A DNA stretch of 64,000 bases from Labilithrix sp. Lineage in GTDB: Bacteria; Myxococcota_A; Polyangia; Polyangiales; Polyangiaceae. Numbering within the stretch: position 1 is the first letter of the stretch; each line of letters starts with the position of its first letter. The stretch lies in contig JAHBWD010000033.1 in assembly GCA_019637175.1 (NCBI GenBank), forward strand, positions 1 through 64,000. Reading direction: 5' to 3'. The notes under the pieces are model-generated. The model searched no databases, was not told the origin of the DNA, and saw nothing but the letters and a program-made list of their open reading frames with translations. The position numbers and the translations under genes were made by a program. Below, piece by piece: positions 1-11,178 of the stretch.

Positions 1-749
1 CCGGGCTTCGCGCCGCTGCCGTTGCCTCCCCGCGACAGGACGCCGAGCACCGCGCCGCTCTCCGCGAACGCGGGGCCTCCGCTGTCGCCCGAGCAGCCGC
101 TCTCGCCGAGCTTGAACTCCGCCGGCCCGAGGCGATCGGCGGGGCCGACCTCTTCGACCTTCACGCCCGATCGCTGCTGGCGAACGTCGGGGTTCGGCGA
201 CTTCTCGGTGACGCCCCAGCCCACGACCGTGACCGTCTCGTCCTTGCGCGGACCGCCCTCGAGGCGAACGGGCGCGATCTTCGCGTCTCTCATCGGTCGC
301 TCGAGGAGGAGGAGCGCGATGTCGTTGTCGCACAGCGTCTTGGCGCCCGTCGTGAGGATCTCCTGCGCGCGCGCGGCGCGATCGAGCCCCGAGATGAAGT
401 CGGGGCGCGTGGTGCCGGAGAACGCGTAGAGCTTCGAGGCGACGTGATCGGACTTCACCTCCGCGCCGAACGTGGGCTTTCCCGCCGAGTCGCAGGCCGC
501 GCTCCCGTCGGTGATCGACACGCAATGCCGCGCAGTGAGCACGAGGCGAGGCGTGAGGAGGATGCCCGTGCAGCCCGCGGTGCCGCCGCCGAGCTGCACG
601 GCGTCGTAGTGCATGATGAGCACCACGGCGTCTTGCTCGGACGGAGAGTCGGTGCCGTTGATGATCGCCGACGAGACCGCGCCCGTGCGCTCGACGCGAT
701 CCGAGCACGAGAGCGCCGCGATCGCGAGGACGAGAGCGGCGCGCTTCAT
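1..749 (-). CDS. Trypsin-like serine protease, secreted lipoprotein (3' end outside window)
   Basis: Chymotrypsin-fold (S1) serine protease; 249 residues are visible and the C-terminus lies beyond base 1. The start ATG gives a signal peptide with a lipobox-like LSCS at about residues 12-15. The catalytic triad is readable in order: His in LTARHC, Asp in DNDIAL, Ser in GDSGGPAF. IINGTDS near residue 28 resembles the activation-site N-terminus of this fold (IVGG-like). The start overlaps the stop of the upstream metallopeptidase gene by four bases (ATGA), so it is the last visible gene of the receptor/HmuY-like operon. It probably acts at the cell surface or outside. Family assignment is secure; substrate unknown. 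Confidence 0.93.
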   Translation of the reverse strand, partial: MKRAALVLAIAALSCSDRVERTGAVSSAIINGTDSPSEQDAVVLIMHYDAVQLGGGTAGCTGILLTPRLVLTARHCVSITDGSAACDSAGKPTFGAEVKSDHVASKLYAFSGTTRPDFISGLDRAARAQEILTTGAKTLCDNDIALLLLERPMRDAKIAPVRLEGGPRKDETVTVVGWGVTEKSPNPDVRQQRSGVKVEEVGPADRLGPAEFKLGESGCSGDSGGPAFAESGAVLGVLSRGGNGSGAKP

Positions 750-2104
750 CGACGCCGCGCGCGCGAGAGCACGAACGCGACCGCGAGCGCCGCGAGCGGG
801 AGCGCCGCGAGCGGATCGCGCGCCGACGAGGGCGACGTCGAGCACCCGCCCTCCTCGCCGCTCGCGCCGCCGGACGAGGAGCTGCCCGCGTCGGGCGCGC
901 CGATGCGGACGGTGAACGGCGCGTCGGTCTTCTTCGTGGTGATGCCCGCGACGACGACGAGCACGTCGCCTTCGAAGTCGGCCGGGAGGGCCTTGGCCTG
1001 CGCGAGATCGGCCTTGCCTCCTTGGAGGGGAACGACCACGCCCGCGTTGCGCGTCGCGTCGGTCTCGAGGGAGATCTTCGACGGCGCGTCGAGGACGCCC
1101 TGGTAGACGAAGTAGCCGAGGCCCGAGGTGATCGCGGAGACGCCGTCGGCGAGCGCCTCGATCTTCACGCCGGGGTACTTCGCCGCGTCGGGGTAGCCGC
1201 CGGAGCCCGCGAGGCTCTTCGTCGCCGCGTTCCACGCGCCGAAGAGCGGATAGGTCTCGGCGAGCGACGATCCCTTCGCCGCGAGGACCGCTTCGGTGGC
1301 GGCGAGCGCCTTCGTGCCGTCGGCCTCGGCCTCGAAGATCTTCTGCACGGTGTCGGGCCCGTGGCGCAGCGTGAGGAAGAGCGGCCAAACCGCGGAGCCG
1401 TAGAGGTAGCCCGCGGTCACGCCCGAGGGCTGCGTGTCGAGCGAGCGCGTGTTGTCTTTGAAGAAGGCGGGGAGCTGCCTCTCGAAGTCGACGAGCTCGG
1501 GGAAGACCGACTTCATCGCCCACTGCGCGGTGCCCTCCGCCCAGAAGCGCTCGATGTCTTGGTCGTACGCGTTCTGCACCGCGTGGAAGAGCTCGTGCGA
1601 CACCACGGTGCGGAAGCCCTCTTCGATCGAAGGGTAGCCGCGGCCGAGGAAGCTCGAGTCGACGAGCATGAACGTCGAGCACACGCGCCCGCTGCACGCC
1701 TCGGGGACGGCGCTGCCGTCGGCGCCGGCGAAGGCGACGAGGTAGATGTCGAGCTTGTCGTCGCCGCCGTTCGAGGCGCACGCGGCGTCGCTCGGCGGGC
1801 TCTTGAACCCCATCTCGGCGTACTTCGCGAGCGCCTGCTGGCCGCTGTCGCCCGCGAGCGCGACGACGTCGGGCACGCCGTCGCCGCGCGTCGTCGCCAG
1901 GTTCGGGGCGTACGCGCCTGTAGTTGCATAATGCACACGTATCGCGGCGGTGGCGTACGACCTCACCTCCGCGGCGCCGTAGCTGTAGCCCTGGTATCCG
2001 GCCGCGTCGGTCGGGCGACCTCGGCACTGCGCGCTCGCGTCGCGCGAGGCCGCGAGCGAGCAGGCGACGACCGCCGCGGCCGCCGCGACGGATCGCGCCG
2101 TCAT
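746..2104 (-). CDS. Secreted zinc metallopeptidase-like protein with MYXO-CTERM tail
   Basis: A 452-residue exported protein. Residues 1-26 form a signal peptide ending in ASA. Residues 170-174 are HELFH, the HExxH zinc site of gluzincin/metzincin-type peptidases, in a context (SHELFHAVQNAY) followed by a Trp-rich EGTAQW segment that could supply the third ligand. The C-terminus has a Ser/Gly spacer, the motif GGCSTS, one hydrophobic helix and RARRR. That is the layout of the MYXO-CTERM sorting tail, which is processed and gives surface anchoring in myxobacteria. The gene overlaps both neighbours by four bases (ATGA), suggesting translational coupling. The peptidase role is inferred from the motif; the tail makes surface display likely. 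Confidence 0.85.
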   Translation of the reverse strand: MTARSVAAAAAVVACSLAASRDASAQCRGRPTDAAGYQGYSYGAAEVRSYATAAIRVHYATTGAYAPNLATTRGDGVPDVVALAGDSGQQALAKYAEMGFKSPPSDAACASNGGDDKLDIYLVAFAGADGSAVPEACSGRVCSTFMLVDSSFLGRGYPSIEEGFRTVVSHELFHAVQNAYDQDIERFWAEGTAQWAMKSVFPELVDFERQLPAFFKDNTRSLDTQPSGVTAGYLYGSAVWPLFLTLRHGPDTVQKIFEAEADGTKALAATEAVLAAKGSSLAETYPLFGAWNAATKSLAGSGGYPDAAKYPGVKIEALADGVSAITSGLGYFVYQGVLDAPSKISLETDATRNAGVVVPLQGGKADLAQAKALPADFEGDVLVVVAGITTKKTDAPFTVRIGAPDAGSSSSGGASGEEGGCSTSPSSARDPLAALPLAALAVAFVLSRARRR

Positions 2105-2850
2105 AGCGCCGAGACCTGGAGGAGGTAGAACGCGGTGGCCATCATGTTGCGCGATCCGCCGTCGGCGAGCGCGTCGTTCGCCTTGATGCCGACCTTGTAG
2201 CGCGTGCCGTCGGCGCCCTTGACGATGTAGGTCACGGCCCTGGGCGTCGGAATGTTCGTCGCCTGATCGTAGTCGTACCAGTCCATGAACGTGGTCGCGG
2301 GCCCGCCGAGCGGCTCGGGCAGCGCGGTGCAGCTCTCGTCGAAGAACTGCTCCGGCACGATCTCCGCGGCGTCGGCGTCGGCGGCGGTGACCGACGCGAA
2401 CGGCTTGTTGACCCGCGCGGCGCCGCCTTGGCCGGGGCCGCCCTCGCCGCTGTTCGTGTAGATCACGGTGCGCTTGAGCGCGAGGTCCCACTCGGTCGAC
2501 TCGAAGGCCGCCTTGTCGCTCACGTCGACGCGCTTGCCCTCGGCGAGGTTGACGTAGACGCGCGGGCTCGAGGCCGCTCTCATCGAGCCGCCGACCGAGG
2601 CGTCGACGTAGATCGTCTTGACCCCGCCGCTGTCCGAGAGGACGAGCACCTCGCCCGTCGCCACCTGCGCGATCGGACCGAGGAGCTTGTCGCGCGCGGA
2701 GGTGCACTGCGTGCCGCTCCCTGCGTCGGTCGGTCCGTCGGCCGCCGCGGCGTCGCCCGTCGCGGCGGGCGTGGTGCTCGAGCTGCACGCGCTCGAGAGC
2801 GTCAGGGGAGCGACGAGGATCGGCGCGAAGAACAAGGCGAAGCGGTTCAT
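2101..2850 (-). CDS. HmuY-like lipoprotein (paralogue 1)
   Basis: A 249-residue lipoprotein; the signal peptide ends at a lipobox-like SSAC at about residues 19-22 and a Ser/Ala/Asp-rich linker follows. The middle contains WDLALKRTVIYTNSGEGG, then a Gly-rich GQGGAA, the signature of the HmuY family. HmuY of Porphyromonas binds haem and passes it to the TonB receptor HmuR. The haem-binding histidines of HmuY are not evident here, so the ligand may differ. It sits between a second HmuY-like gene and a metallopeptidase, downstream of a TonB-dependent receptor, which supports a surface ligand-capture role. Its stop overlaps the next start by four bases. Confidence 0.8.
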   Translation of the reverse strand: MNRFALFFAPILVAPLTLSSACSSSTTPAATGDAAAADGPTDAGSGTQCTSARDKLLGPIAQVATGEVLVLSDSGGVKTIYVDASVGGSMRAASSPRVYVNLAEGKRVDVSDKAAFESTEWDLALKRTVIYTNSGEGGPGQGGAARVNKPFASVTAADADAAEIVPEQFFDESCTALPEPLGGPATTFMDWYDYDQATNIPTPRAVTYIVKGADGTRYKVGIKANDALADGGSRNMMATAFYLLQVSAL

Positions 2851-2861
2851 GGTGGTCTCTC

Positions 2862-3992
2862 TCACTTCACGGGTTTGATGCGCATCACGATGGTGCCCGC
2901 GCTCTCCGCGGTCGCGCCCTCGAATCGCGCGAAGCCGAGCAGGTACTTCGAGGTTCCGTCGGCGCCGACGACGAGCCACGCGGTGCGCGCGGGCGCGGGC
3001 GGGCTCACGCCGCGCTGGAGCCAGAGCGTGCCGAACGCGCTGACGACGCGATCGCCGCGGAACGCGTGACCGGCGAGCGCCTGATCGTCGACGGCGTCGA
3101 AGCGCGCGCGCTCGCTCTGATCGCTCCGCGTGCGGATGTCTTCGAACGTCTCCGTCGGCGACTTGTCGGCGTCGAGATCGACCGCGCCGACGCCGCGCGG
3201 GCCGCCGATCTCGCCGTTGACGCTGATGTCTTGGCGGCGGAAGCAGACGTGCCACGTGCTCACGGTGCGGGCGACGCTGGGCGCGAGCATCTGGCGCGCG
3301 CCGGTGCCGAGATCGAGGCACTCGATCGGAGCGTCGGGCTTGCCTTGCGGGCCGCCGGCGGTCCCGTCGAGATCGGCCGCCTCCATCACCTGCCCCGACG
3401 CGCCGCCGGCGAGCACCTCGGCCCAGCGCACCTTGTAGAGCGCGCTGATCGGCGCGCCGTCGCGCTGCCCGTAATAGTTGAGGACCTGGAGCTTGAAGAG
3501 CTTGTCGCCGTCTTTGATCCCGTACGTGTGGTAGCGCGAATAGAGCGCGTGATCGGGCGCGCCGCCGTAGAACCACCAGCGGATGAACGCGCCGCCGGTG
3601 GTGTCGGGCGAGAGAAAGGGAACCGTGGGCGCGATGTCTTCGAGGAAGACGATCGCGTCGAGCGGACCGAACGCCGCGCCGTTGCCTCCGCCCGAAGGTC
3701 CGCTGTTGGTGAAGACGTCGAGGCCCTGGAACGCGATGTCCCAACCCTTGTCGGTCGCCGGATCGGCGGGCGTGACCACCGCGGGCGGATCGGAGAGCTT
3801 GACGTGAACGCGGCCGCCCCCGAGCGCGACGCGCAGCTCGGTGCCCGAGTCGAAGCTCACGGCGGCGTCGTCGCCCGCGTCGGCGCCGGGCGCGGGCGTC
3901 GACGTCCCCGCGCTGTCGCTGCACGCGGCGAGGCTCGTCGCGACGGCGAGCGACGCGCCCGCGATCGCCTGCCAATCAAGCACCCACTTCAT
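2862..3992 (-). CDS. HmuY-like lipoprotein (paralogue 2)
   Basis: A 376-residue lipoprotein. The signal peptide ends in SLAAC at about residues 20-24 and is followed by an Ala/Asp-rich linker. WDIAFQGLDVFTNSG and a Gly-rich GGGNGAAF match the motif in the neighbouring paralogue and in HmuY proteins. It is longer than paralogue 1, with an extra central and C-terminal beta-rich region (residues about 180-376). The ATG overlaps the stop of the TonB receptor gene (ATGA), so receptor and lipoprotein are probably translated together. By analogy with HmuR/HmuY it would be an outer-membrane accessory that captures an iron- or haem-containing ligand; the ligand is inferred only. Confidence 0.8.
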   Translation of the reverse strand: MKWVLDWQAIAGASLAVATSLAACSDSAGTSTPAPGADAGDDAAVSFDSGTELRVALGGGRVHVKLSDPPAVVTPADPATDKGWDIAFQGLDVFTNSGPSGGGNGAAFGPLDAIVFLEDIAPTVPFLSPDTTGGAFIRWWFYGGAPDHALYSRYHTYGIKDGDKLFKLQVLNYYGQRDGAPISALYKVRWAEVLAGGASGQVMEAADLDGTAGGPQGKPDAPIECLDLGTGARQMLAPSVARTVSTWHVCFRRQDISVNGEIGGPRGVGAVDLDADKSPTETFEDIRTRSDQSERARFDAVDDQALAGHAFRGDRVVSAFGTLWLQRGVSPPAPARTAWLVVGADGTSKYLLGFARFEGATAESAGTIVMRIKPVK

Positions 3993-5980
3993 TCGTCCTC
4001 CCAAGGAAAGTCGGCCTTGAGGCCCACGTAGAGGATACGCCCCAAGGGCGACCTCGTGTCGCCGATGCGCCCCGGGTCCTGCTTCACGTCGAGGAGGTTC
4101 ACCGATCCCACGTAAAGCTGCGACCTCGGCCACAGCGCTCGCCCTACACGGACGTCCAGGGTCTGGTAGCCGGGCGCGCGCGTGTCCTGGTCGAGGAAGG
4201 AGTCGGTCACGATGCGCGACCTCACGTAGAGCTCCATCTTCCAGCCCGGCTCGATGCGAAGAGAGACGGTGACCTGATGCGGCGGTCGCCCTGGGAGCGG
4301 GCGATCGTTCACGTCGTCGCGTGTCCACGTGTAAGCGTAGCTCGATTCGGCGCGCAGGAAAGGCGCGGGCTTGAACGCGGCGTCGATCTGCCCGCCCGCG
4401 GTGCGCGCCTTGCCGAAGTTCGCGTAGGAGTACTGCACGACTCCGCCGTCGTTGATCCCGCCGCCGAGATCGATGTCGATGAGATCTTCGACCCAGTTCG
4501 AGAAGACCGACCCGCGGAAGGTCATCGTCGACGCCGGCGTGACGGTGGCGTCGGCGCTGACACCCCACGATTTTTCCGGCGCGAGCGCGTCGTTGCCGAT
4601 GATCCGGTAGCCGAACACGGAGTGATCGAAGAGGAATCCGAGCTCCTTGGCGCTCGGCGCGCGGAAGCCTCGCCCGCCGGAGAGGCGGAACGTGACGAGA
4701 TCGGACGCGCGCCACGCGGCGGCGAGGCGCGGCGCGATCGACTCGCCGTAGCGCGTGTGCGCCTCGAAGCGCGCGCCGGGCATGACCGTAAACGCGCCGA
4801 GCTTCCACGAGAGCTGACCGTAGAGCGCGGCGATGCCGTAAGAGAGCGGCGTCACCTCCGGCGCCCTCGTCGTGACGGGGCCCTCCGACGTGCTCGACGT
4901 TCGCGTGAGCTCCTGCTCGAAGTGCTCCGCTTCGAAGCGCGCGCCCGTCACCCACGTGCGGGGGCCGTCGGCGAACGTGCCGACGGCCTCGAGGCTCTGC
5001 ATGCGGTGGGTGCGATCGTGCCTTTCGTCGATGACGGAGTCGCGGCGATCGCGCGCGGTGAAGTTGTCGAACCACTGGCGACCGAGCGTGAGGCGCAGGT
5101 TCGATCCCTTGTCGCCGATCTTCGTCACGTGGATGACGTGCATCGTGTAGCGATCGGTCTGCGCCGGCGTGTCGATGGTGAAGCGGCCGAGGCCGGGCGT
5201 CTGCTGCGTTTCGAGGCCGTCGAGCCGATCGCGGAAGCTCCGCAGGCGGATGCGCACGTCCATCGCGCGCGAGAGCTGCGTGCCGGCGCGGATGCCGACC
5301 ATGCGCCGCGACGTGTTCGGCACGCGGAGATCGGGGAGCCCCGGCGTCTTCTCGATCCCGTCGAGGCGCGACATGTTGAAGTCGAGCATCGCCCACGTCG
5401 CTCTTCCTCGTCCGGCGTATGCGGCGTTGCCTTGGAGGACGACGCCGTTCAGCGAGCGGCCCTCCATGCGGAGGCGCGCCGTCGGGCCCTCCTGGCGCGG
5501 CGGTCCGGTGATCACGTTCACGACGCCGCCGATCGCCGCGGATCCGTAGAGCGCGCTCGTCGGGCCGGCGACGATCTCGAGTCGATCGATGTCGCCCGTC
5601 GGGATCGCCGACAGATCGACCGCGCCGCCGACGTCGCCGACGACGCGCTCGCCGTCCTCGAGGATGAGGACGCGATCGCGGTCGAAGCCCTGGATCTGGA
5701 GGGCGCTCACGCCGCCGAGGAAGCCGTACGAGCCCGGGTTCACGACGAGGCCCGGCTGGCTCGCGAGCGCGTCGGCGACGTTGGTCGCGCCGCGACGCTC
5801 GGCCTCTTCGCGCGTGACGACGTCGGTCTTCACGGTCGCGCGCTGGGCGCGCTCGGGCGTGCGCGTGCCGGTGATGACGACCGTGTCGGCGTCCTTGTCC
5901 TTCTTGGGCGGCTCGTCGGCGCGAGCGACCGCGGGGAAGGCGACCCCGATCAGCGCCAGCGCGGCCACCCGACGAAGCAC
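3989..5980 (-). CDS. TonB-dependent outer-membrane receptor
   Basis: A 663-residue receptor if the GTG at 5980 is used. That start places a clean signal peptide (ending VARA) at the N-terminus; an upstream TTG at 6019 would add 13 residues in front of it and looks less likely. After the signal comes a TonB-box-like DTVVITGTR at about residues 32-40. Next is a plug domain containing VADALASQPGL and LEIVAGPTSALYGSAAIGG, and then a 22-strand type barrel ending in FPWEDE. It imports a scarce ligand across the outer membrane using TonB energy. The two HmuY-like lipoproteins directly downstream point to haem or an iron complex. It is the first gene of the minus-strand operon and shares a divergent promoter region with the gene at 6124. 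Confidence 0.93.
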   Translation of the reverse strand: MLRRVAALALIGVAFPAVARADEPPKKDKDADTVVITGTRTPERAQRATVKTDVVTREEAERRGATNVADALASQPGLVVNPGSYGFLGGVSALQIQGFDRDRVLILEDGERVVGDVGGAVDLSAIPTGDIDRLEIVAGPTSALYGSAAIGGVVNVITGPPRQEGPTARLRMEGRSLNGVVLQGNAAYAGRGRATWAMLDFNMSRLDGIEKTPGLPDLRVPNTSRRMVGIRAGTQLSRAMDVRIRLRSFRDRLDGLETQQTPGLGRFTIDTPAQTDRYTMHVIHVTKIGDKGSNLRLTLGRQWFDNFTARDRRDSVIDERHDRTHRMQSLEAVGTFADGPRTWVTGARFEAEHFEQELTRTSSTSEGPVTTRAPEVTPLSYGIAALYGQLSWKLGAFTVMPGARFEAHTRYGESIAPRLAAAWRASDLVTFRLSGGRGFRAPSAKELGFLFDHSVFGYRIIGNDALAPEKSWGVSADATVTPASTMTFRGSVFSNWVEDLIDIDLGGGINDGGVVQYSYANFGKARTAGGQIDAAFKPAPFLRAESSYAYTWTRDDVNDRPLPGRPPHQVTVSLRIEPGWKMELYVRSRIVTDSFLDQDTRAPGYQTLDVRVGRALWPRSQLYVGSVNLLDVKQDPGRIGDTRSPLGRILYVGLKADFPWEDE

Positions 5981-6022
5981 GTCTGATTCATATCCCAGAC
6001 TTGGCCACGTCTGGCTCAAGTT

Positions 6023-6067
6023 GCGCCATGAACGAATGGCGCCATTTCGGCGTCTAAGGCGCCATGG
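6023..6067. promoter_or_regulatory. Cluster of GGCGCCAT repeats in divergent promoter region
   Basis: The element GCGCCAT occurs at 6023-6029, 6039-6045 and 6059-6065. The middle copy is part of a perfect 10-base palindrome ATGGCGCCAT (6036-6045), and the first copy forms an inverted repeat with ATGGCGC (6036-6042). The cluster lies between the TonB receptor (minus) and the metallopeptidase lipoprotein (plus), where an operator controlling both would be expected. No -10/-35 hexamers could be assigned with confidence. The repeats are seen directly; the regulatory role is inferred. Confidence 0.45.
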
Positions 6068-6123
6068 CTTCGAATTTCGCGCCGTCGTCGAAACGGCATG
6101 ATCACTGCTTGGTGAGGGCCCCG

Positions 6124-7605
6124 ATGCGAAAGCTTCTCGGTTTCTTCGTGTGTGCTTTGCTCGCGACGACGGCCTGTACGGAACAAATCATCATCAAGCA
6201 GGGGCCGGCGCCGGACGCTCCCACAGTGGACGACGAGGAGCCCGCCCCCACACCGTCGCCCACGCCCCCCACGCCCTCCGATCCGCTGGTCGTCGATCTG
6301 GGAGCAGTCCAGGCGGGCGTCGACGTGCCGTTCGAGGTGCCCGCGGGCGCTCTCGGCTTCAACATCGTCATGGAAGGCGAGGTCGCCGATTTCGACCAAG
6401 ACCGCCCCTACGGCATCGAGCGCATCGTCGATCCGAACGGCAAGACCGTGCACGCGAGCTTCATGCCGGTCGGCGGAACGAAGTCGACGAGCACCGCGGC
6501 CTTCGACACGATCGCGGCCGCGAGCGTGCCGCAGAGCGAGGCGGTCGCAGAGACGATCCCCGCGGGCAAGTGGACGGTGCGCTTCGGCGTGGAGAACAAC
6601 CCGTCGGCGAAGCCGACCGTGTACGCGAAGGTGCGGATCCAATCGAGCGGCGACGGCGCGTTCTACGGCGGCAAGCTCGATCTCCACGTCCACGTGCCGA
6701 CGGGCCTGCGCGTCGGCGGCGCGACGGTGAACCCGGCGGAGGCGGCGAGCGACTCGCGCATCAAGGAGCGCCTCGATCTGTTCTTCCAGCTCACGACCCA
6801 GCTGCTCGGCATCGAGCGTGGCGAGGTGACGTTCCACACCGCGGCGGCGCGCTTCGCCGAGCTCGACGATCAAGAGATCCTCCAGGGCTTCGCCGTCTCG
6901 CGGGGCGCGGAAGACGGCACGCAGGCGCTGCACGTCCTCTTCACGAACGAGATCAGCCAGGGCGGGCAGCCCATCGCCGCGGGCATCTCTCCGGGCATTC
7001 CCGGCGCGGCGACGGTCTTCGGGCGCGGCGTCTCCGGCATCATCGTCGCGACCTACTCGTCACGCGACGAAGACGTCCTCACGATGTTCCACGAGGCGGG
7101 CCATTTCTTCGGCCTCAATCACACGACCGAGTTCGACGGGCAGAGCGCCGATCCGCTCGCCGACACGCCGCGCTGCAACGGCATCTCCGGCGGCAACCTC
7201 GGGAGCTGCCCCGATCGCACGAACATCATGTTCCCCGCCGGGGCGATCGACGGACCGGTCACGCTGTCGCCCACGCAGAAGCGCGTCTACCGCGGCTCGC
7301 CGATCTACAAGGCGTTCCCCGCGGGCACGAAGCAGACGCAATCGTGGTCTCCGTTCGCGCCGCAGGCGATCGACCTCTCGACGATCCGTCGCCGATTCCG
7401 CGCGTCGGGCCGCCCGCTGTCGAGGGTGGAGAGCGAGCTCTCTCTCGGCTACTGCGGGCTCACGCCGATCGACGCGGGCGGCATGGTGGCGCGGCTCGGC
7501 GAAGCGACGGCCGTCGCGCAGCTCTCGGCGGCGGCGAACGATCTCGATCTGTCGCCGATCATTCGCGGCCGCGCGAAGGTCGCGCTCGCGAAGCTCGGCC
7601 ACTGA
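6124..7605 (+). CDS. Secreted lipoprotein metallopeptidase (metzincin-type)
   Basis: A 493-residue lipoprotein. The ATG at 6124 is preferred over one at 6064 because it is preceded by GGTGAGGG and directly gives a signal peptide with lipobox TTAC (about residues 15-18). A Pro/Thr-rich linker and a beta-rich domain (about 60-180) precede the catalytic part. HEAGHFFGLNH at 323-333 is the HExxHxxGxxH zinc motif of metzincins (His323, Glu324, His327, His333). NIMFP about 50 residues later fits the Met-turn region. It would degrade proteins at or outside the cell surface. It is divergent from the TonB receptor operon and ends seven bases from the convergent kinase gene. Confidence 0.88.
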   Translation: MRKLLGFFVCALLATTACTEQIIIKQGPAPDAPTVDDEEPAPTPSPTPPTPSDPLVVDLGAVQAGVDVPFEVPAGALGFNIVMEGEVADFDQDRPYGIERIVDPNGKTVHASFMPVGGTKSTSTAAFDTIAAASVPQSEAVAETIPAGKWTVRFGVENNPSAKPTVYAKVRIQSSGDGAFYGGKLDLHVHVPTGLRVGGATVNPAEAASDSRIKERLDLFFQLTTQLLGIERGEVTFHTAAARFAELDDQEILQGFAVSRGAEDGTQALHVLFTNEISQGGQPIAAGISPGIPGAATVFGRGVSGIIVATYSSRDEDVLTMFHEAGHFFGLNHTTEFDGQSADPLADTPRCNGISGGNLGSCPDRTNIMFPAGAIDGPVTLSPTQKRVYRGSPIYKAFPAGTKQTQSWSPFAPQAIDLSTIRRRFRASGRPLSRVESELSLGYCGLTPIDAGGMVARLGEATAVAQLSAAANDLDLSPIIRGRAKVALAKLGH

Positions 7606-7611
7606 CGGCGA

Positions 7612-10359
7612 TCACTTCGGCACTTCGAACGAGTGCCGTACGGTCTGCGGTGTTCCGCTGAACGCGTTCACCTTGGCGCGACGGAGCTGAGCCGCCACGC
7701 AGTCGCCCGTGGGCGTTCCCGCGAACGGCGGATCGACGTGCACGCCCGAGACGGCGCCGTCGGTACCGAACGTGACCGTCGCGTTGCCCGGCCCGGTCGG
7801 ACCGCCCTCTTTCTTGCAGAACACGAGCACGCCGTTCGCGACGCTCAGCCTGCCGCGCGCCGCGCCCTCGTTCCACGCGTTCGGATCGACCGCCGGCTTC
7901 GCCGACGCGGTCGGCGGGGGCGTCGCCGTCGGCGGAGGCCACGTGAACTGCGGCGCGGACGTCGTCGGCTGCGCGGCCGTCGCCGCCGGCGCGGAAGCGG
8001 ACGCGGAAGGCGGGGCGCTCGGCTCCGGTGTCTCCGTGGGCGCGGCGGCGACCGACGCGTCTTCCGCCGGAGTGTCGGTGCCCGGCGGAGCGGTCGCGTC
8101 GACTTCCTCCGTCGCCACCGGCGGCGCCGTCGCCGGCTCCGTGGGCGACTCCGTCGGCATCGGGACCGGCGTCGGCGTGAGCTCCGCGCTCTCGGCCGAC
8201 GCGACGCCACCGTCAGGAGCGACCGATCGCGCGCGAAGCGCGAACAACCCGAGACCGAGGCCGCCGACCGCAAGCACGGCGAGCCCGATCGCGATCGGCA
8301 CGATGGGAAGGGGCTTCGCGGGCGCTTCGACCGCGGGCGCGGAGGGCGGCGGGAACGGCGCCGCCGGCGGCGCCGCCGCGAACGGCGTTTGTGCCGTTCC
8401 GAAAGGCGCCGGGGGCGTGTGCGAGATGAGCGGCTGCGCCGACACCACGGCGCTGGCCTGACCGAAGGGAGCCTGCTGCGGCGGCGGCTGCGGGATCGCG
8501 GCGACCGCGGGGATCCCGCGCGGCGGCGTTCCTCGCGCGCCGGGAATGCCTTGCATGCCCGGCGCCGGAACGGGCGGCGACATCGCGACCGTCGACCCGA
8601 GACCGCCACGCTGCGGAGGCGGCGGAGGTTGCGGCAGCTCTTGCTGCTGTTGCGCCAAGGCCTGCGCGACCGCGGAGCGCGCCGCCTGGGCGTCGCCGGG
8701 CGCCATCATCATCGTTCCGCCGCTGCCTCCTCCCGAGGGCGGCACCGGCGTGACACGCGCGGGCGCATCCGGCGGAGGCGCCGGCGCGGCCGCGGGCATG
8801 CGCGTCGACGAAGGCGCGGCGGCGCGCGCGGCGTCGGCGAGATCGTCGACGTCGGCGCCCGCGATCGCTCGATCCACGGCCGCGCGCGCGGCTTGCGCGT
8901 CGGCGAGCGCGAGGGTGCGGAGCACCTCTGCGCCCGGCGCGTGGATCTTCGTCGCTTCCTCTTCTTCGCCGGCCGCGGCTGCCGCGATCGCGATCGGCGC
9001 GGTCGCGATCGACGTCGGCGGCTCGCTCGCTCGCCTCGCGATCGTCTCGGCGTCGGGCGCGGAAGGAAAGCGCGCCGTCGGCGGCGAGCCCGCCGGACGA
9101 TCCGACGGAGGACGCGCCGCGGGACGCGGAATGCCGGGCATCCCCGGCGAGCTCGGAGGACGCGCCGTCGTGCGCAGCGGCGCCGCGGGCGGAGCGGGCG
9201 CCGCGCCCGGACGCACCGGCGGGATCCCGATCGTCGTCGGAATGCGCGGCCGCGGCCCAGGCTTCGGCGCGCCGGGCACGCCGGGCGTGCTCGTGCCGAG
9301 CGGCAACGTGCCCGCGTGCTTCATCGGCGCCGCGACGGTCTCCTTCGCGTCCTTGGGCGCGGGCGGTCGAGCCCCGATCGCGAGCGGCGGCGTCTCGCGC
9401 GCCGCCTGCTCGTACTTGTGCTCGCTCGCGACCTTCATCGCGATCGTGAGGCTCTTCCAGAAATCGCCGACCGACTGCCACCGCGCCTTGGGATCGAGCA
9501 GCGTCGCGCGCGCGAACGCCGCCTCGACCTCGTCGGGCACCTCGACGCCGAGCGACCGCGGCGTCGGCCGTTTGTTCGGATCCGTGGTCGCGGTGGCGAA
9601 CTCGCCGATGTGCGTTCCTTCGTTGACCGTCTTGTCGCGGAGCGCCTCCAACAGAACGAGCGCGAACGCGTACACGTCGGACGCGGCGCCGACCGCGCCG
9701 ATGCGATCGTCGAACTGCTCGGGCGAGCCGTACGCCGGCGCGAAGATCCGGATCTGCCCCACCGTCTGCGCGCGCGGCCCGAGGTTGAGCGCGCCGTCGT
9801 GCATGATCTTGGCGACGCCGAAGTCGAGGACCTTCATCTTCACGCCCTGCGGCGTGGTGGCGAGGTAGAAGTTGCCCGGGTTGAGATCGCGGTGCACGAC
9901 GCCCTGTGCGTGCGCGTGCGCGAGCCCGTCGGCCGCCGCGTCGAACAGCTTCACCACCTCGTCGAGCGTGCGGCCCTTCTCGCCGACGGTGCGGCGCACG
10001 GTGAAGTCGTTCTGGAGCGAGCGGCCCTCGAGCCACTCGAGCACCATGTAAGGAATGATCGCGCCCGTCGCCGGCGCCTGCGTCGTGCCCGCCGCGACGC
10101 TCCTCACGATGTGGAGGTTGCCCTGCGAGAGGCGATAGAGGATGCGGCTCTCGTCGCGGAAGCGCTGGATGAAGGTGTCGACGAGCGAGGTGCCGAGCGC
10201 CGCGGGCAGCTTGAGGCACTTGATCGCGATCGGCTCGTTCAGGCCCTGGTGGTGGCCCTTGTACACCGTGCTGAAACCGCCCTCACCGACGAGCTGATCG
10301 ACACGAAATTGGCCGTCGAGGACCTGACCCACGAGCCCGAACGGGTCGGCTGGATTCAC
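7612..10359 (-). CDS. Membrane Ser/Thr protein kinase (PknB-like) with periplasmic C-terminal domain
   Basis: A 915-residue kinase with a GTG start. The kinase domain covers about residues 15-310: glycine loop GEGGFS, ATP lysine Lys47 in AIKCLK, HRDLN with Asp158, and DFG at 179-181, so it should be catalytically active. A long Pro/Ala-rich, low-complexity segment (about 330-690) follows, then one transmembrane helix at about 700-725 (LPIVPIAIGLAVLAVGG). A second Pro/Thr/Ala-rich linker leads to a C-terminal domain of about 85 residues with NGVLVFCKK. Such C-terminal beta domains recur in myxobacterial envelope proteins. It probably senses an envelope signal. It converges with the metallopeptidase lipoprotein gene. 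Confidence 0.93.
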   Translation of the reverse strand: MNPADPFGLVGQVLDGQFRVDQLVGEGGFSTVYKGHHQGLNEPIAIKCLKLPAALGTSLVDTFIQRFRDESRILYRLSQGNLHIVRSVAAGTTQAPATGAIIPYMVLEWLEGRSLQNDFTVRRTVGEKGRTLDEVVKLFDAAADGLAHAHAQGVVHRDLNPGNFYLATTPQGVKMKVLDFGVAKIMHDGALNLGPRAQTVGQIRIFAPAYGSPEQFDDRIGAVGAASDVYAFALVLLEALRDKTVNEGTHIGEFATATTDPNKRPTPRSLGVEVPDEVEAAFARATLLDPKARWQSVGDFWKSLTIAMKVASEHKYEQAARETPPLAIGARPPAPKDAKETVAAPMKHAGTLPLGTSTPGVPGAPKPGPRPRIPTTIGIPPVRPGAAPAPPAAPLRTTARPPSSPGMPGIPRPAARPPSDRPAGSPPTARFPSAPDAETIARRASEPPTSIATAPIAIAAAAAGEEEEATKIHAPGAEVLRTLALADAQAARAAVDRAIAGADVDDLADAARAAAPSSTRMPAAAPAPPPDAPARVTPVPPSGGGSGGTMMMAPGDAQAARSAVAQALAQQQQELPQPPPPPQRGGLGSTVAMSPPVPAPGMQGIPGARGTPPRGIPAVAAIPQPPPQQAPFGQASAVVSAQPLISHTPPAPFGTAQTPFAAAPPAAPFPPPSAPAVEAPAKPLPIVPIAIGLAVLAVGGLGLGLFALRARSVAPDGGVASAESAELTPTPVPMPTESPTEPATAPPVATEEVDATAPPGTDTPAEDASVAAAPTETPEPSAPPSASASAPAATAAQPTTSAPQFTWPPPTATPPPTASAKPAVDPNAWNEGAARGRLSVANGVLVFCKKEGGPTGPGNATVTFGTDGAVSGVHVDPPFAGTPTGDCVAAQLRRAKVNAFSGTPQTVRHSFEVPK

Positions 10360-10393
10360 GCGCGCAGCCTACCAGCAGAAGGCCGAGAAGACT

Positions 10394-11104
10394 CTATCGT
10401 TCGTCGGCCGTGACCGATCCTCCGTACCAGGCCATGCGGAAGCCGAAGGAGAGCCAGTGGCGCTCGGCGGGCTTGCTGAAGATCGCGTCGTACTCGACGT
10501 AAGGTCCGCCCGAGACGTGGCCACCGAGCATGCGGAAGAAGCGCCACTCGTGGTGCACGCCCGCGCCGAGGAACGACTGCGTCCCGTCGGCGCCGGGGTA
10601 CGGCCCCTTGGCTTGAAGCTCGGTCGCGCCGACGCCCATCATGCCGTAGATCGCCAGATCCGCGAGCCTGGGCACGAGCCGGTAGAACGGGAACGCCTCG
10701 GCGCGGAAGCCGACGCCGAAGCCCGTCGACTTCCACTTCTCGGTCTCCATCCTCGCGCTGCTCACCATTGGCCCGAACGAGAGGTAGTCGGTGAGCGCGC
10801 CCATCACGAAGATCGAGCTCGACGTTCCGACGAGGAGCGGGCTCTCGGAGTAATAGTCGGGGTTTCCGATGAGCTTCGAGTCGTTGGGATAGCCGCTCGC
10901 GCCCGCGAACGCCGGGCCGAACGCGAGGCCGATGACGACGCCGGCGCGGCGCTCGGCCGGAACGCTCTGCATCGCCGCCTCGCTCGGCGACGGCGAGACC
11001 GAAGAAGGAGAACCGGTGTCGCCCACCGCCGAATCGGCGAGCGCGAGCGCGGGGGAGAGCGCGAGAGCGCCCGACGCGAAGAGGGCCGCGGAGAGCCGAG
11101 CCAT
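10394..11104 (-). CDS. Predicted outer-membrane beta-barrel protein
   Basis: A 236-residue exported protein with a signal peptide ending ALADSA (about residue 25). It then has alternating hydrophobic/aromatic strands typical of small barrels (for example [22 protein letters not shown] and [13 protein letters not shown]). The ATG is preceded by a strong Shine-Dalgarno sequence, AGGAGGGGG, a few bases upstream. The gene lies just upstream of the kinase gene on the same strand (34-base gap) and may be co-transcribed with it. No specific function can be assigned. Confidence 0.75.
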
Positions 11105-11178
11105 GCCCCCTCCTTATATACGGTTATGTGCGGCGGCTCACGGATGACGCGGCGAGATTTGTGGAGTATCCGCTTGGC

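Follow-up and report, generated by a model that had tools for sequence, protein, structure and literature searches.

The closest described counterpart of the locus reported here is found in Porphyromonas gingivalis, where gingipains free haem that is then bound by HmuY (PMC10100897). The same source describes a second role of the gingipains, the detachment of HmuY from its anchor, and places their genes in a part of the genome other than that of HmuY. HmuY-like genes have already been noted in Myxococcus xanthus and Stigmatella (PMC2671838), so the presence of HmuY in myxobacteria is not in itself new. The operon described here lies at one end of a 64,000-nucleotide stretch of Labilithrix sp. 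DNA (hereafter the window) and resembles P. gingivalis HmuYRSTUV and its gingipains in the combination of a haemophore-like HmuY lipoprotein, a TonB receptor, haem transporter genes, and proteases, which in P. gingivalis free haem (PMC10100897, PMC12106395). It differs in that the P. gingivalis proteases are of the cysteine type and their genes are unlinked to HmuY, whereas the present operon itself encodes one zinc and one serine protease, and in that two proteins share three HmuY repeats between them. Compared with the Yersinia-type HmuRSTUV/HemRSTUV systems, the receptor shares a FRAP-like box and histidine, and HmuT-U-V and a HemS protein are found at a second locus of the genome; unlike those systems, HmuY proteins and proteases have been added. 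We propose, with moderate confidence, that the operon encodes a surface haem-scavenging unit, in which proteases cut haemoproteins and HmuY passes the haem to the receptor. In the vicinity of the cell, two proteases, one of them probably anchored by a MYXO-CTERM-type tail, would cleave proteins that carry haem. The haem so released would be bound by HmuY1 and the two-repeat HmuY2, delivered to the TonB receptor, and moved by the receptor into the periplasm, there to be handled by HmuT-U-V and the HemS-like protein of the second locus. We infer haem as the ligand of the window copy, its release by the proteases, and the joint working of the two loci; the cutting of haemoproteins, with prey as the haem source, is likewise a presumed step.

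Base 1 of the window is also base 1 of its contig, in a genome assembly of 9.1 Mb and 151 contigs. The genes follow one another on the minus strand in the order TonB receptor (3989–5980, 663 aa), HmuY2 (2862–3992, 376 aa), HmuY1 (2101–2850, 249 aa), metalloprotease (746–2104, 452 aa), and trypsin-like serine protease (1–749, 249 aa), the last truncated at its 3′ end by the contig start (P0001 to P0005, respectively). ATGA overlaps join the receptor to HmuY2 (3989–3992), HmuY1 to the metalloprotease (2101–2104), and the metalloprotease to the trypsin (746–749), and an 11-bp gap separates HmuY2 from HmuY1. An earlier note on this DNA had proposed a coupled five-gene unit with three such overlaps, which the coordinates and the Pfam and NCBIfam families bear out. 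The interval that it gave, 746–5980, holds for four of the genes; the incomplete trypsin gene lies beyond it.

The metalloprotease matches the MXAN_6640 family model NF045524 at 175.5 bits (cut-off 140). Like that family and M30 metallopeptidases such as lugdulysin, it combines HExxH with a downstream glutamate in the same predicted fold. H170, E171, H174, and E190 are each present in 22 of 22 aligned sequences, with the zinc-binding HELFH motif encoded at 1583–1597 and Glu190, the candidate third ligand, at 1535–1537. The AlphaFold2 model (pLDDT 86.4, pTM 0.81) finds its best match in lugdulysin, an M30 zinc metallopeptidase (VIA Z 21.8, rmsd 3.9, 289 residues aligned), and reaches a Z of about 14 against M1 aminopeptidases. 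The MYXO-CTERM metallopeptidase of the earlier note is thus upheld as a metalloprotease, while its C-terminal tag scores 16.2 bits against TIGR03901, under the cut-off of 20, with a GCSTSP motif, a predicted helix at 431–451, and an RARRR end all present. According to PMC11980579, M. xanthus directs tags of this kind to its surface. A MYXO-CTERM-type tail occurs in about half of the MXAN_6640 family (10 of 20 members at E ≤ 0.05), and this, together with the linkage to HmuY, sets the family apart from M30 enzymes such as lugdulysin. The second protease matches PF00089 (68.9 bits, 7.4e-19, cut-off 20.6), and its translation shows the catalytic triad motifs TARHC, NDIAL, and GDSGGP; the C-terminus is missing. 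A trypsin fragment at another contig start of the same genome (G000:C10:7-339), which matches residues 156–264 of the homologue in relative L036 at 58%, might relate to this cut gene.

Both lipoprotein-like proteins exceed the PF14064 cut-off of 27 bits, HmuY2 with 31.2 and HmuY1 with 38.7. The earlier note had placed HmuY2 in the right family and had missed that it carries two HmuY repeats, which account for its unusual length: its first and second halves match the HmuY1 family profile at 99.9% and 99.65% probability. A direct comparison of the two halves showed no likeness (0.2% probability), the link between them running only through HmuY1. The AlphaFold2 model of HmuY2 (pLDDT 84.3) matches P. 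gingivalis HmuY best (3h8t; Foldseek E 1.7e-6, VIA Z 17.1, rmsd 4.1, 155 residues aligned), and as this alignment spans residues 49 to 376, the repeats of the modelled protein may be intertwined rather than arranged as beads on a string. For HmuY1, the fold is assigned by profile only, through the solved relatives 8b6a (E 1e-16) and 3h8t (E 6.6e-12). Its sequence contains no histidine, and no histidine or methionine is conserved in its family; iron ligation in the P. gingivalis manner, judged from sequence, therefore cannot apply to HmuY1. Other HmuY proteins are described as binding without iron ligation (PMC12106395). In HmuY2, three histidines are conserved (H148 in 22/22, H155 in 21/22, and H248 in 20/22 sequences), their residue-by-residue match to His134 and His166 of P. 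gingivalis HmuY being ambiguous. According to PMC2671838, Arg79 of P. gingivalis HmuY contacts a haem propionate. Arg79 aligns with R127 of HmuY1, a residue shared by all 24 sequences compared, and R253 of HmuY2, invariant in 22 rows, would in our reading of the shared W-x(5)-R spacing correspond to Arg79 as well. A different arrangement of repeats is seen in the order-level relatives L067, L069, and L071, where three HmuY matches fall in one open frame adjoining a receptor, compared with two plus one in the window operon.

The association of the metalloprotease with HmuY extends far beyond this genus. The 96 genomes of our relatives' set contain 34 MXAN_6640 proteins that exceed the cut-off; 30 of these are encoded no more than 3 kb from a HmuY match, always on the same strand. 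We applied the same 3-kb definition to a phylum sample of 283 genomes, own genome included; for both counts, repeated HmuY matches inside one locus were dropped. At least 53 of 83 above-cut-off proteins were near HmuY among the matches listed, and once 26 genomes with misses had been searched again for HmuY, the count rose to 67 of 83, in 67 of 77 genomes, with 56 of the 67 linked cases on the same strand (47 + 9). Of the 16 unlinked proteins, several are second copies whose match is confined to the later part of the model. As a control, homologues scoring under the cut-off gave 0 of 67 near HmuY, among the matches listed, and simple arithmetic (few HmuY loci, genomes of several megabases) puts chance proximity within 3 kb at well under one per cent per gene. 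The coupling to proteases suggested in the earlier note is thus supported, and for the metalloprotease it holds phylum-wide. A search of a collection of open-access papers returned no account of a link between MXAN_6640 and HmuY; the name MXAN_6640 occurred in none of them, and none of the papers listed there for myxobacteria dealt with HmuY. Since the metalloprotease travels with HmuY genes across Myxococcota, the analogy suggests that the operon could be a hard-wired genetic version of the protease-plus-HmuY haem scavenging of gum-disease bacteria. MXAN_6640, a putative protease family without a described function, would gain a partner and a testable job, and the gingipain–HmuY idea, drawn from a human pathogen, would apply to bacteria of soil and water in the form of a single inherited operon.

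Many HmuY–metalloprotease pairs have no adjoining receptor, and seven of the loci that we compared (L053, L055, L057, L063, L064, L066, and L068) are two-gene units of this kind. That the tightest and widest link is to HmuY alone is what one would expect under the main rival to haem scavenging by proteolysis, namely that the metalloprotease serves HmuY itself, trimming it or shedding it from the membrane to let this lipoprotein diffuse away and collect haem, with no digestion of haemoproteins. There is precedent in P. gingivalis, where Kgp is described as freeing HmuY from its lipid anchor (PMC10100897), and HmuY is reported to resist trypsin and gingipains (PMC2671838), which makes a limited cut plausible. 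However, a single processing cut needs no two enzymes, and a second protease, the trypsin, is present in all six loci whose contigs reach it and recurs in two rearranged loci (L093 and L095). We therefore regard shedding as unlikely, although it is the strongest of the alternatives. Our haem-scavenging reading can also be given a broader and more tentative form, which we consider quite possible while holding it with less confidence than the proposal for the operon itself. HmuY and the MXAN_6640 metalloprotease would be a pair dedicated to haem extraction, in which the protease opens haemoproteins and HmuY receives the freed haem, and this pair would be a basic unit across Myxococcota. It would have been duplicated in the Labilithrix-like clade, with one copy keeping the transporter and the other gaining the trypsin; HmuY1 would hold the porphyrin, and HmuY2 would ligate the iron.

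FRAP and NPxL boxes with a histidine between them are a mark of haem receptors such as HemR and HmuR. The window receptor has both barrel and plug (PF00593, 129 bits; PF07715, 86 bits) and starts at GTG 5980, with GTG 5968 as a possible alternative. The haem, B12, and ligand-gated receptor models of NCBIfam all match it below their own cut-offs, and as the haem model TIGR01785 scores 131 bits against a required 316.85, we class the receptor as haem-like only. One could instead suppose that the operon imports something other than haem, for instance cobalamin, a siderophore, or a peptide, and that the HmuY-like proteins bind this ligand. The B12 model is indeed the best NCBIfam match by a hair, its E-value of 1.2e-38 being nearly equal to the 4.8e-38 of the haem model; BtuB is the best solved relative of the receptor; and the histidine-free HmuY1 and the want of a Fur-like box at the window operon point the same way. 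This alternative is nevertheless improbable, more so than shedding, for His453 (codon 4622–4624) is invariant in 21 of 21 aligned receptors and lies between a FRAP-like box and a GNxxLxPE box (FRAP-DHS-GNxxLxPE, encoded at 4574–4666), HmuTUV and HemS genes accompany the sister receptor clade, and a search of the genome at E ≤ 1e-20 gave, in this fragmented assembly, the window receptor as its only match and thus no second candidate of this type for supplying the haem transporter.

That transporter is encoded at a second HmuY locus. Three HmuY matches were found in the genome, one on the window contig and two on another contig (C1), where the genes for HmuT, HmuU, an ABC ATPase, and a HemS-type protein begin only a few bases after a HmuY2–HmuY1 pair (locus L004). 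The labels of the ATPase and the HemS-type protein were checked on the relatives L041 and L046, in which the domains are confirmed. No receptor adjoins this locus. As the genome search gave no receptor match besides the one in the window, that receptor is most simply read as feeding the C1 haem transporter. Haem-transporter genes stand beside HmuY2 in ten distinct loci (L004, L035, L041, L045, L046, L047, L054, L060, L100, and L103), four of which (L045, L046, L054, and L060) also contain the metalloprotease. Because a paralogous HmuY pair directly precedes HmuT-U-V-HemS and the receptor keeps its invariant histidine, the haem reading is strengthened. The haem uptake put forward in the earlier note is supported by this paralogous locus, by the metalloprotease in four haem-transporter operons, and by the receptor motifs, with the lack of histidine in HmuY1 counting against it.

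The gene order itself was compared across relatives. A PF14064 search matched 50 of 96 genomes, own genome included, and from the HmuY-bearing genomes we compared a selection of 40 regions, mainly from the organism's own family together with the best order-level matches. Genes were called with a custom unpublished script in these regions and at the C1 locus, giving 41 loci, and duplicate contigs were counted once (for example L074/L036, L075/L042, L076/L038, L101/L044, L077/L051, and L089/L043). The relatives that carry a name include assemblies of Labilithrix as well as Polyangium, Sorangium, and Minicystis rosea. In the receptor tree, built from 36 sequences, the window group forms one clade of 8 rows (support 100/100), and a neighbouring clade of eight rows (92/79) includes the transporter-type loci L035, L041, L045, L046, and L054. 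The full order receptor–HmuY2–HmuY1–metalloprotease–trypsin recurs in L036, L038, L039, L042, and L044, such that it is kept in six of the six own-clade loci whose contig reaches the trypsin, window included; a search for the same order in other genomes, proposed in the earlier note, has thus found it in every own-clade relative with a long enough contig. The contigs of L043 and L051 stop within the operon, and in L039 an opposite-strand gene stands between the receptor and HmuY2. The 4-bp overlap of HmuY1 and metalloprotease is present in all seven own-clade loci that hold both genes, again counting the window, and the other overlaps are less constant. L093 and L095 are rearranged, with metalloprotease, HmuY1, and trypsin together on a single strand opposite HmuY2, so that even with a broken order the partners remain neighbours. 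A loose cluster of surface proteins without common function, which one might suspect because trypsins are common here, the L036 trypsin homologue having 17 matches in the genome, is very improbable given the conserved order, the overlaps, and the phylum-wide linkage. The receptor–HmuY2 part is carried by cultured strains, Minicystis rosea DSM 24000 and members of Polyangium and Sorangium, which offer a means of studying how Myxococcota use haem.

Two further observations concern neighbouring genes in these relatives. Downstream of the trypsin, in L036 (12942–15637), L042 (8341–11080), and L038 (2350–5132), there follow a gene of 453–458 aa without a clear Pfam family and then a second trypsin-like gene, and the window genome may have the same two genes past its contig end. 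In the rearranged locus L061, a DUF6607 protein (10089–11171, 246 bits) is encoded between HmuY1 and the receptor.

The iron control of the window copy that the earlier note had anticipated finds no support upstream of the receptor. We scored Fur-like boxes out of 19 positions against a Fur consensus, with 299 genes as background. The best site before the window operon reaches 11 of 19, a score equalled by 10% of background genes, and no sigma-70-like promoter was found in 1–7700. Within the window's clade, three of eight loci reach 13 of 19, L036, L038, and L042 sharing one 13-of-19 site. Among the other HmuY2 loci, transporter-linked or sister, 9 of 12 score at least 13, versus 5 of the 299 background genes, and the C1 locus of the same genome scores 15 of 19. 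Two near-perfect palindromes (5995–6014 and 6018–6047) lie in the region between the receptor and a divergent gene (5981–6123), and from their sequence they are possible operators of some regulator. The divergent gene (6124–7605, plus strand) is metzincin-like, with weak M12/M43 matches and a visible HExxHxxGxxH motif; no counterpart of it was seen among the genes of seven compared clade loci. Upstream of the receptor, the window also holds a serine/threonine kinase gene (7612–10359, minus strand). In L043 and L039, a homologous kinase gene ends 5–8 bp before the receptor, and the two may be co-transcribed there; with a kinase also upstream in the window, regulation may therefore differ in this clade.
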